A stretch of 64,000 nt of DNA, taken from NCBI GenBank assembly GCA_003385635.1, contig QQUY01000001.1, forward strand, positions 2,457,001 to 2,521,000, in the 5' to 3' direction. Below, piece by piece: positions 52,728 through 56,106 of this stretch (the first letter of the stretch is position 1; the number at the start of each line of letters is the position of its first letter). The position numbers and the translations under genes were made by a program. Under the pieces are notes generated by a model. The model was given only the letters and a program-made list of their open reading frames with translations, did no database searches and was not told the DNA's origin. The stretch comes from Acidobacteriota bacterium. GTDB taxonomy: Bacteria > Acidobacteriota > Blastocatellia > Pyrinomonadales > Pyrinomonadaceae.

Positions 52728-54743
52728 CTAACGCGCAATTTCGGTAGATGCCTTTAATTCAAGCTCCTCCGGTCCTGAGCTTTCTCCGACCTCAAGCGGC
52801 ACTTTCCATTCGAAGCTCTTGATGTAACATACGCCCGTGTTGTCTTTCCGACAATAAAATGCCGTAAACCGGATCCTCAGTTGCTTTTCCCAGCCCTCGA
52901 GCGGCGGCAGTTCGAATTTGTACGGCAAGTCCTTCGGGCTGAACCGTTTGCCGCTACCTTCGTCGTCAGTCTCGATATTTACCTCGATCCGGTTCGGCGC
53001 CGACGGATTCAAGTGAAAACCTTGAGGAAGGTCCAGATCTATTGATACCTTGATCCCTCTTCCTTTCGTAACTCGGAACTGTTCCCGCTCGATGACAATG
53101 GCATTCGAGTGCGGTGCAAAGTCTGTGGTCTCACCTGGTTTCGGAGGCTGAAGCCCCTTGATCATAAGGGTAGAGACTTCAAGAGTCCTAAGATCGGCAA
53201 CGCGGATCGCGTGGTTGTTGGTGTCGGCGATATAAAGCTTTTGGCCCGCAACGCTGAGGCCTCCAGGCTCGTAAAAGGTCGGAGAGCCACCCTCGGCCTG
53301 GCCTTCTTCTCCTGTTCCCAGCAGTGTTTCGACCGAACGCTTCTCCGGATCGAGGATCTTTATCTTGTCATTGTAGGTGTCGGCAATGAGAACCGACTTT
53401 CCATAAGATTCGACTGCCAGCGGATGCTGTAGCCTGACGTAATCGCCTTCACCGTCACGGTCTCCGAATGAGAAAAGATCTCCTCCGACCGAGGTGTGAA
53501 CCGCCTCCTTATCAAGATCGATCTCGCGGATGATGTTCGATTCGCTGTCGGCAACGAACAACCTCTCGTCGATGACAGCAAGCCCGGACGGTTGTGCGAA
53601 GTGGGCTTCTTTTACGGGCCCGTCCTTGCGAGACTCCCAGCGGGTTCCGGCAAAAGGCTCGATGTACGGCCGGTCGAGGCTTAGCCTCCAGATCTGATGC
53701 GAACCGGCCATTGCGATGTAGAGGTATCTGCCGGCGATCTTGACATCCCAGGGCGACCTCAGGCTGGTCTTTAGAGCATCTCCGCCAAACCCGTTGAAGC
53801 CTTCCAAGGTGCCGGTCCCCGCAACGGTCTCGACTTTCTTCCTTTTGAGATCGATCTTGCGGATCAGGTGATTGCCTGTATCTGCGACAAAGAGATGATC
53901 GCCGTTTAGCACAAGCCCCTGAGGCTGTCTGAACGAAGCTTGCTGATAATTGCCGTCCGAAGCCGATGCAGACCCGGACCCGATGGTCTCGATGAAATTT
54001 CCTACAAGATCCGTGATGACGATCCGGTTGTGGTTCGAGTCAGAGATAAATAGGCGTTTCGATCGTTCATCTGCGAGCACCTTTCCGGGAAACGCAAGCG
54101 GCAGAGTTCCGACCTTGGCCTTCTCAAGGGCGAGTTCGATCGGAGATTCGTTGAGTTTACCCAACTTTTTGAACCTGGCGGCGAGTTCCCCGATCGCGGT
54201 ATTGAAATAGTCGAACTTTCCTTCGCCCGAGACCTGTGCGACGACATAACCATCGGGATCGATCAATACCTGCGTAGGCCAGGCTCTCACGGCGTACGAG
54301 TCCCAGATCCTGAAATCTGCGTCATTGACGACAGGATGCTCTATTCCATAGCGAAGTATGATCCGCCTTATGTTCTCCGTCTCTTTCTCATTATCGAACT
54401 TCGCGGAGTGAACGCCGATAACGACCAGTTCCTTCGAATACTTTGCTTCCAGCCGTTTCAGGTCCGGAATGATGTGAATGCAGTTGACGCACCCGTACGT
54501 CCAGAAATCGAGCAGCACGATCTTGCCGCGCAAACCTTTCAGCGTGAGAGGCTCGTCCGTGTTGAGCCATCCGGAATGCCCGTCGAGCTCGGGTGCTCGC
54601 ACTTTCTGCGAATGAAGATCAAGATCAGTGCTCAGATCTCGCTCCGCAAATAAAAACGGCGGATGAGATCCGCCGGCGAGTGCTAGAATCAATGCCGTCA
54701 AGGTCGTCGGGAACGCTCCCCGAATAGTTCTCCATAGTCTCAT
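52728..54743 (-). CDS. NHLRC2-like thioredoxin-fold / NHL-propeller protein
   Basis: 671 residues. A signal peptide or anchor (ALILALAGGSHPPFLFA) suggests an exported protein. Residues about 50-195 are a thioredoxin/TlpA-like domain with the active motif FWTYGCVNCIHIIPDL and the cis-Pro WPTQVLIDPDG. About 210-540 is an NHL beta-propeller (repeated FRQPQGLVLNGDHLFVADTGNHLIRKID, FAQPSGLAVIDERLFVADSESNIIREID). The C-terminal beta-sandwich domain (about 560-660) completes the three-part architecture of eukaryotic NHLRC2. The active-site pair is CVNC here. A redox function is inferred. It is in the same run as the Sec-peroxiredoxin and YggX-like genes. Confidence 0.9.
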   Translation of the reverse strand: MRLWRTIRGAFPTTLTALILALAGGSHPPFLFAERDLSTDLDLHSQKVRAPELDGHSGWLNTDEPLTLKGLRGKIVLLDFWTYGCVNCIHIIPDLKRLEAKYSKELVVIGVHSAKFDNEKETENIRRIILRYGIEHPVVNDADFRIWDSYAVRAWPTQVLIDPDGYVVAQVSGEGKFDYFNTAIGELAARFKKLGKLNESPIELALEKAKVGTLPLAFPGKVLADERSKRLFISDSNHNRIVITDLVGNFIETIGSGSASASDGNYQQASFRQPQGLVLNGDHLFVADTGNHLIRKIDLKRKKVETVAGTGTLEGFNGFGGDALKTSLRSPWDVKIAGRYLYIAMAGSHQIWRLSLDRPYIEPFAGTRWESRKDGPVKEAHFAQPSGLAVIDERLFVADSESNIIREIDLDKEAVHTSVGGDLFSFGDRDGEGDYVRLQHPLAVESYGKSVLIADTYNDKIKILDPEKRSVETLLGTGEEGQAEGGSPTFYEPGGLSVAGQKLYIADTNNHAIRVADLRTLEVSTLMIKGLQPPKPGETTDFAPHSNAIVIEREQFRVTKGRGIKVSIDLDLPQGFHLNPSAPNRIEVNIETDDEGSGKRFSPKDLPYKFELPPLEGWEKQLRIRFTAFYCRKDNTGVCYIKSFEWKVPLEVGESSGPEELELKASTEIAR

Positions 54744-54772: not shown

Positions 54773-55069
54773 TTACCAGGTGATTGATCCTTCTTTAGAC
54801 GTGTCTATCTCAGCCAGGTCTTCTCCCTCGTTGAAGAAGAACAGCTTCATCTGGTCAAAAAGGTAGTCGTGCGCGTCCGGGTTCGAAAGATCGAGACCGA
54901 AATGATTGATGATCTGCTTTTGCTTCTCCAGCCATTCCGTCCAACATTCCGCGCATATCTCAGAACCGATCCTCTGGCCCAGATCGGTCGGAATCGGCGC
55001 ATTTCCAAGCGGCTCGGTCTTCCTGCCGCAGCGCGCGCATTCGAATTTTTCGTTTGAAAACAGTCCCAT
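54773..55069 (-). CDS. YggX-like Fe(II)-trafficking protein with N-terminal Cys4 ribbon
   Basis: 98 residues. The C-terminal two thirds match YggX (GQRIGSEICAECWTEWLEKQKQIINHFGLDLSNPDA...FFFNEG), a small cytosolic protein tied to iron handling and oxidative resistance of Fe-S enzymes. The N-terminus adds FECARCGRKTEPLG. With the CAEC in the first helix this gives a four-cysteine set (CxxC...CxxC) able to bind zinc or iron, whereas ordinary YggX has a single N-terminal Cys. It lies between the Sec-peroxiredoxin (50 bp) and NHLRC2-like (29 bp) genes. Confidence 0.82.
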   Translation of the reverse strand: MGLFSNEKFECARCGRKTEPLGNAPIPTDLGQRIGSEICAECWTEWLEKQKQIINHFGLDLSNPDAHDYLFDQMKLFFFNEGEDLAEIDTSKEGSITW

Positions 55070-55119: not shown

Positions 55120-55575
55120 TCATTGTTCCGCTGCCGTTGACGCAGCTCTCAGGACCTCTTCGTCAGTCGGCCTGAACACGCTCAGAGACTGAACATTGTG
55201 GCTCTTCACCTTTCCGTCCTTTCCGACGACAACTACCGCCCGAGCCGAACGCCCGGGGATCCAGGACTTCACGCCGTATCTAGCCACGACGTCCGCGTCA
55301 GGATCTGAAAGAAGTCTAAAGGGAAAATCGTACTTGTCGCTGAAATTCTTGTGAGATTCGACAGAATCGGTCGAGATACCGACCACTGTCGCTCCGGTTG
55401 CTTTGTAATCGTCCCAGTTATCACGAACCGAGCATAGCTGCTTCGTTCAGACCGGTGTGTCGTCGCCTGGATAGAAAAGCAGCACCACGACTTTTCCCCG
55501 ATGGTCCGACAGCTTCCATTCGGTTCCTTCCGAATCTTTCAAAGTAAAATCCGGAGCGATTTCATTTAATTCCAT
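55120..55575 (-). CDS. Selenocysteine-containing BCP/PrxQ-type peroxiredoxin (in-frame TGA = Sec43)
   Basis: 151 codons when the TGA at 55447-55449 is read as selenocysteine. The track shows only the 88-residue part after it. Translation from the ATG at 55575 (GGAAGGTGG just upstream) gives MELNEIAPDFTLKDSEG, VVVLLFYPGDDTPV-U-TKQLCSVRD and continues in frame to PTDEEVLRAASTAAEQ. In BCP/PrxQ enzymes this position is the peroxidatic cysteine (TPVCTKQxC), with the resolving cysteine five residues on, here Cys48. No other stop or frameshift interrupts the gene. The enzyme reduces peroxides with thioredoxin; Sec would speed the reaction. The genes selA, selB, selD and selC are not in the window and would be needed. 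It is in a close run with YggX-like and NHLRC2-like genes. Confidence 0.85.
55415..55440 (-). promoter_or_regulatory. Candidate bacterial SECIS stem-loop
   Basis: Beginning 7 nt after the TGA, CAGCTAT pairs with ATAACTG (one mismatch). An inner CG-GTT-CG hairpin places a G-containing apical loop about 19-21 nt after the TGA, inside the spacing known for bacterial SECIS. A competing ACGAA/TTCGT stem (55423-55446) is also possible. Confidence 0.45.
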
Positions 55576-55647
55576 TTCCACCTTCCTTCGAATCCTTGAT
55601 TCTATCGGTTAGAAATCTGCAGGGCAATTGCGGGCGAAATGCCCCGA

Positions 55648-56106
55648 TCAGAACTTGCGGATTAGGACGACGCCCAGAATGATGGCCGCGACTCCGCCCA
55701 TTCTCGCAAGGGTAACGGGCCGTTCGGGGACCCCGAACATCGCATAATGGTCGATGATCAATGTGAGTACCATCTGCCCGGCAATTATCAGGCTGAATGT
55801 AAGAGCGACACCCAGTCTTGGCACAAGTATCACAGTACACGCAACGAAATAGGCTCCGAGGACTCCGCCTGTCCACGCATACCAGGGAACGTTCTTAGCG
55901 GTCCAGATGCTTGAAAGCGAATCTGCAGATACGACGATGTAGATCAGAAGCGCCAAACCGCCGACGATGAAGGAAACAAGCGCGACTACCATCGGACTGA
56001 CGATGAACTCATTCAGCTTGTTGTTTATCGCGGCTTGGGCAGTCCCAGCCATTCCAACGGTAACTGCAAGAAGTATGAAGAAATAATTGGATATCAGGGA
56101 TCGCAT
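55648..56106 (-). CDS. DMT-superfamily transporter (DUF606/YdcZ-like)
   Basis: 152 residues, five hydrophobic helices. AAINNKLNEFIVSPMVVALVSFIVGGLAL and PWYAWTGGVLGAYFVACTVILVPRLGVALTFSLIIAGQM are the conserved DUF606 blocks. Members form small inner-membrane transporters, often as paired halves; substrate unknown. It starts 57 bp after the FkbM stop and ends 72 bp before the Sec-peroxiredoxin start. Confidence 0.88.
   Translation of the reverse strand: MRSLISNYFFILLAVTVGMAGTAQAAINNKLNEFIVSPMVVALVSFIVGGLALLIYIVVSADSLSSIWTAKNVPWYAWTGGVLGAYFVACTVILVPRLGVALTFSLIIAGQMVLTLIIDHYAMFGVPERPVTLARMGGVAAIILGVVLIRKF

Follow-up and report, generated by a model that had tools for sequence, protein, structure and literature searches.

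Organization of the locus

The locus lies in a window of 64,000 nucleotides, by which we mean the whole stretch of DNA that was analysed. It comprises a peroxiredoxin gene of the PrxQ/BCP type with an in-frame TGA at its catalytic position, and three neighbouring genes in the same orientation. The features considered in this study are the following.

52728..54743, minus strand: protein with a thioredoxin-like domain and NHL repeats, next gene downstream in the same orientation
54773..55069, minus strand: Fe(2+)-trafficking (YggX-like) protein, PF04362, downstream neighbour of the peroxiredoxin gene
55120..55575, minus strand: prxQ-like gene, predicted selenoprotein of 151 residues, ATG at 55575, terminal TGA at 55122-55120
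55408..55446, minus strand: block of frozen synonymous codons 44-56, unusually conserved among the selenocysteine (Sec) genes
55413..55432, minus strand: SECIS-like hairpin CUCGGUU-CGUGAU-AACUGGG, identical in the three Sec genes
55432..55434, minus strand: TGC codon 48, likely resolving Cys (i+5), a near-invariant alignment column whose role is assigned from the PrxQ/BCP family
55447..55449, minus strand: TGA codon 43, putatively read as Sec at the peroxidatic position, Cys in the other fetched orthologues
55578..55586, minus strand: ribosome-binding site GGAAGGTGG, read directly from the sequence just 5' of the ATG
55648..56106, minus strand: YdcZ-type membrane protein, PF04657, upstream neighbour of the peroxiredoxin gene

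The peroxiredoxin frame contains a single internal stop, TGA43, which is located between GDDTPV and TKQLCSVRD and falls exactly on the peroxidatic cysteine (PGDDTPV-U-TKQLC). In a Pfam search, PF00578 spans residues 5-125 straight through the TGA with 133.6 bits (cut-off 26). This is in line with the first-pass annotation, which had described one BCP/PrxQ frame broken only by TGA43 and preceded by a ribosome-binding site: the frame runs from ATG 55575 to TGA 55122-55120, the binding site is found just upstream, and family, active site and resolving Cys are all as given there. The minus strand of the gene is a point it did not mention. It had further stated that standard gene callers hide the gene, and the list of open reading frames under translation table 11 (at least 60 aa) indeed holds at this gene only an 88-aa downstream piece with a GTG start (55120..55386), so that the active site is lost to a standard gene caller.

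When the whole window was scanned for TGA codons that might be read through in a redox-like context, six candidates emerged, among which, as judged by eye, only the PrxQ-like gene reads as a recognisable redox protein. Its terminal stop is a TGA too, and several neighbouring genes likewise end in TGA, so that this codon is not globally reassigned. The best named matches of the protein are the NCBIfam models for PrxQ/BCP equivalogs, NF053650 (103.9 bits, cut-off 260) and PRK09437 (NF006960; 88.1 bits, cut-off 140). As both scores lie below the cut-off, the gene is filed as PrxQ-like only.

Conservation of the TGA in sister species

Orthologues were found in 101 of the 119 genomes of the host's family that were searched. 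Three of them, all from the window's genus, carry a TGA at codon 43: the gene of the window's genome itself, that of a metagenome-assembled genome named Aridibacter famidurans (G004, locus L053) and that of isolate Ww303 (G006, locus L054). The proteins of the two sister species show 78% and 72% identity to the window gene. Aligned with all fetched relatives, as the first-pass annotation had proposed for Cys homologues, TGA43 coincides with the catalytic Cys of 131 loci; 8 loci have a stop at this residue, of which two belong to a different Sec peroxiredoxin and the others are copies of the three Sec genes. The gene of genome G086 has an internal TGA, and its residue 43 is Cys.

A lone in-frame stop is the commonest sign of a pseudogene or of a sequencing or assembly error, and TGA43 might be just such a nonsense mutation, with the gene undamaged in all other respects. 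The first-pass annotation had itself named a sequencing error, or several independent disabling mutations in sister strains, as possible refutations. However, the identical TGA recurs in the separate assemblies of two sister species at 72-78% identity, and is thus explained neither by chance nor by an error in a single assembly; no other disabling lesion was found in the sister-species frames. Moreover, a comparison of the three Sec genes gives a dN/dS of 0.11-0.17 over codons 44-147, and purifying selection, as judged from these sequences, is acting on both sides of TGA43. Together with the frozen synonymous codons directly past the TGA and the complete Sec machinery in the genome (see below), this renders a pseudogene or an error exceedingly improbable.

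The gene order YdcZ - peroxiredoxin - YggX-like - thioredoxin/NHL is identical in the two sister species, again in independent assemblies. Among the loci examined, the YdcZ-type gene adjoins the peroxiredoxin gene only in the three Sec loci. The YggX-like gene is located near PrxQ in most of the family loci examined, be they of Sec or Cys type, which suggests a shared oxidative-stress unit. The thioredoxin/NHL protein is a possible redox partner of the peroxiredoxin.

Selenocysteine machinery

All four components that the first-pass annotation had listed for a check, selA, selB, selD and a tRNA-Sec, are encoded in the window's genome (three contigs, 4.13 Mb in total, completeness 92.9%), each scoring over its curated cut-off. 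The tRNA-Sec is located at C3:181256-181350 (73.2 bits) and is called by ARAGORN as tRNA-SeC with anticodon tca; SelA scores 541.6, SelB 384.9 and SelD 348.9 bits. Over the cut-off were likewise the tRNA-Sec in 40 out of 40 genomes searched, SelA in 20 out of 20 and SelB in 19 out of 20. In the control, 5 of 14 named genomes also exceeded the cut-off of the tRNA-Sec model, and ordinary long tRNAs were caught at lower scores, so that the ARAGORN call together with SelA and SelB constitutes the firmer evidence for the window's genome.

The selD gene (L051, G000:C2:657137-658060) carries one in-frame internal TGA of its own, and many SelD proteins are encoded with an in-frame TGA. The genome contains one more peroxiredoxin-like frame (L158, G000:C1:2205826-2206134), which has a TGA within a DW-U-PYC (UxxC) motif and is probably another selenoprotein.

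A near-cognate tRNA, e.g., for Trp or Cys, could also decode the TGA with no involvement of selenium, or the locus could yield a short peptide and an internal 88-aa product; the downstream open reading frame with its GTG start would fit the latter. Yet the other fetched orthologues have their catalytic Cys at position 43, and a product of the downstream piece alone would be devoid of the active site. Read-through without selenium is further at odds with the genome, which possesses a tRNA specific for Sec and, besides the PrxQ-like gene, two redox or selenium genes that contain a TGA. We therefore hold non-Sec read-through or a split product to be highly improbable.

Putative RNA signal downstream of the TGA

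In codons 44-56, the three Sec genes agree in codon choice at 9 out of 11 positions, versus 25 out of 82 elsewhere (Fisher p = 0.0016), counting only codons with unchanged amino acid in these three sequences, which are all the Sec sequences at hand. The range of codons 44-56 was picked after the alignment had been seen, while the location of a SECIS element was expected beforehand from theory. In sets of three Cys orthologues that diverge to a similar extent, the same freeze was found in 0 out of 30.

The block contains a SECIS-like hairpin with a stem of 7 bp, a loop that begins 21 nt past the TGA and a G at the second loop position. Published rules for bacterial SECIS elements call for a loop of 3-9 nt, a stem of 4-16 bp, a G within the first two loop bases, a spacing of 16-37 nt and a minimum free energy of at most -7.5 kcal/mol (PMC13188914). 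Loop, stem, G and spacing fit these rules; the energy of the hairpin alone, -6.1 kcal/mol, falls short of the limit, and Cys genes can match as well. For comparison, the upper stem of E. coli fdhF, in its minimal form, yields -4.2 in the same program. A hairpin at -6 or better is formed by 13 out of 120 Cys genes, and when the full region is folded, its structure of minimum energy differs from the SECIS-like hairpin. Being weak and formed by some Cys genes as well, the hairpin alone proves little; since it is not Sec-specific, the evidential weight lies on the frozen codons and not on the fold.

The minimum-energy hairpin of the first 60 nt was also considered as a SECIS element. Its loop lies just 8 nt past the TGA and its z-score versus shuffled sequences, -0.73, is not significant; in view of the published spacing of 16-37 nt it was set aside as the less likely candidate, although it is conserved as well. 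An Rfam scan of the locus retrieved no known RNA element.

We also asked how readily the peptide itself accommodates a hairpin. When the native peptide is encoded with randomly chosen synonymous codons, an equally stable or better hairpin at 20-22 nt arises in 7.3% of cases, compared to 1.4% for shuffled peptides and 2.6% and 0.2% for two near variants. Given this modest effect and the low values of the near variants, a pre-adaptation of the peptide to the hairpin is only hinted at.

Origin of the Sec residue

A tree of 77 sequences unites the three Sec genes in a single clade (99/81). This clade is nested in a larger one of five members (98/93) that also comprises the Cys genes of G001 and G019, within a family that is otherwise wholly of Cys type. 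With a smaller sequence set, the support of the Sec clade drops to 87/79. In a tree of SelA, SelB and RpoB, a branch with 100/100 support sets the three Sec genomes, and nothing else, apart from the rest. The nesting of one Sec clade among Cys orthologues suggests that Sec was probably gained once from Cys, in the common ancestor of the three and inside the genus, and against the close Cys relatives the switch looks recent. Events of this kind are already known: an earlier study counted 33 Cys-to-Sec changes in 17 families, five of them in peroxiredoxins (PMC1794560).

With regard to history only, Sec might instead be ancestral in the PrxQ subfamily and have been replaced by Cys many times elsewhere. 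Similar hairpins are possible after the Cys codon in some Cys orthologues, and other families are known to contain relics of Sec-to-Cys changes that retain traces of a SECIS element (PMC1794560). On the other hand, the sampled outgroups from the family, the class and other phyla are all of Cys type while the Sec genes occupy one terminal clade, the tested Sec-BCP genes of other Acidobacteriota (see below) form a separate clade, and the synonymous freeze is absent from the Cys genes. An ancestral Sec is thus very unlikely, and we retain the single gain from Cys.

Relation to known Sec peroxiredoxins

A family of Sec peroxiredoxins with a PxxxTxxU motif is well established (PMC13188914, PMC1794560), which confirms the statement of the first-pass annotation that Sec is known at this site in other bacterial peroxiredoxins. 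With members such as WP_011365628.1 (PMC13188914), the window gene shares this motif, the PF00578 fold and the UGA at the peroxidatic residue; what sets it apart is that its DTPVUTKQLC subfamily has Cys in all other sampled genomes. The UGA at the peroxidatic Cys of the homologues, the Sec machinery of the host and the TGA-bearing homologues in other organisms place the gene, as a predicted selenoprotein gene, in this family, to which it is a genus-restricted addition. PrxU (NF040737), a thioredoxin-dependent peroxiredoxin, is a related case, but with 77.3 bits versus a cut-off of 270 the window gene is outside that group. The name PrxU derives from the selenocysteine peroxiredoxin of Eubacterium acidaminophilum.

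A phylum-wide pattern search retrieved 15 further Sec-BCP genes with the motif ADTPGUTxE[GA]C in other Acidobacteriota families (L204-L215, L219-L221). They represent the same peroxiredoxin type and agree with the window gene in the Sec position and the Sec-x4-Cys arrangement, whereas those tested fall into a clade separate from it. Their hairpins are mostly strong and near-identical, with a loop starting with GU at a spacing of 17 nt; the hairpin of the window gene is weaker and spaced at 21 nt.

A different Sec peroxiredoxin, here termed P0002 (WTPVUTxQMPSYEADG; L222-L225, L242-L253), is present with a TGA in 34 of the 119 family genomes. Like the window gene, it is of PF00578 type with the TGA at the peroxidatic site (YPLDWTPVUTVQMPSYEADG), but the two share about 37% identity and P0002 has no Cys at i+5. 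Within the genus, P0002 with its TGA is found in G001, G002, G003 and G005 and is missing from the three Sec-PrxQ genomes. PrxQ is intact and of Cys type in G001, G002 and G003; the contig of G005 begins after the respective codon. Across the family, Sec-PrxQ (3 out of 119) and P0002 (34 out of 119) never occur in the same genome, a mutual exclusion which, with only one gain event, is not statistically meaningful. As a tentative and rather doubtful scenario, the window's lineage may have lost the older P0002 and turned the Cys of PrxQ into Sec, making use of the SECIS-prone CSVRDNW stretch; the swap is seen in one lineage, and draft genomes can miss genes. If true, a functional exchange of selenoproteins would have been caught at the scale of a genus.

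Predicted structure and proposed mechanism

The peroxiredoxin fold of the window protein, predicted with confidence (pLDDT 94.5, pTM 0.90), is closest to the solved structures of Sulfolobus Bcp4/Bcp1, with 3hjp and 3drn as top matches. In the model, the active-site helix comprises residues 41-52; position 43 lies close to its beginning, and Cys48 is found in the same helix five residues further on, where PrxQ/BCP proteins have their resolving Cys. In the alignment (A1), Arg112 is invariant and Cys48 nearly so.

For Sec insertion, the role of the hairpin, the peroxide activity and the electron donor, we infer the following course. UGA43 would be decoded as Sec by SelB and Sec-tRNA-Sec, directed by an RNA element in the first ~40 nt past the codon, while the terminal UGA, which is not in that RNA context, would still stop translation. 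By analogy to the family, the enzyme probably reduces peroxides: the selenolate of Sec43 would attack the peroxide, Cys48 would resolve the selenenic acid to a selenenylsulfide, and a thioredoxin-like donor would regenerate the enzyme.

Taking all facts together, the gene very probably encodes a PrxQ/BCP-like selenoprotein with a peroxidatic Sec, its UGA43 being read by SelB and its Sec having been gained once from Cys within the genus, as far as comparative sequence evidence can tell. The probable selenoprotein of the first-pass annotation is thereby supported by the machinery, the sister-species TGA codons and the frozen codons. A literature search of incomplete coverage found no report linking Pyrinomonadaceae with selenocysteine. 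This Acidobacteriota family receives a well-supported selenoprotein that standard annotation cuts short. Closely related orthologues with Cys and with Sec, found within one genus, form a natural pair for asking what benefit Sec confers in PrxQ, and the same pair is useful for studying how a SECIS element emerges within a coding sequence.
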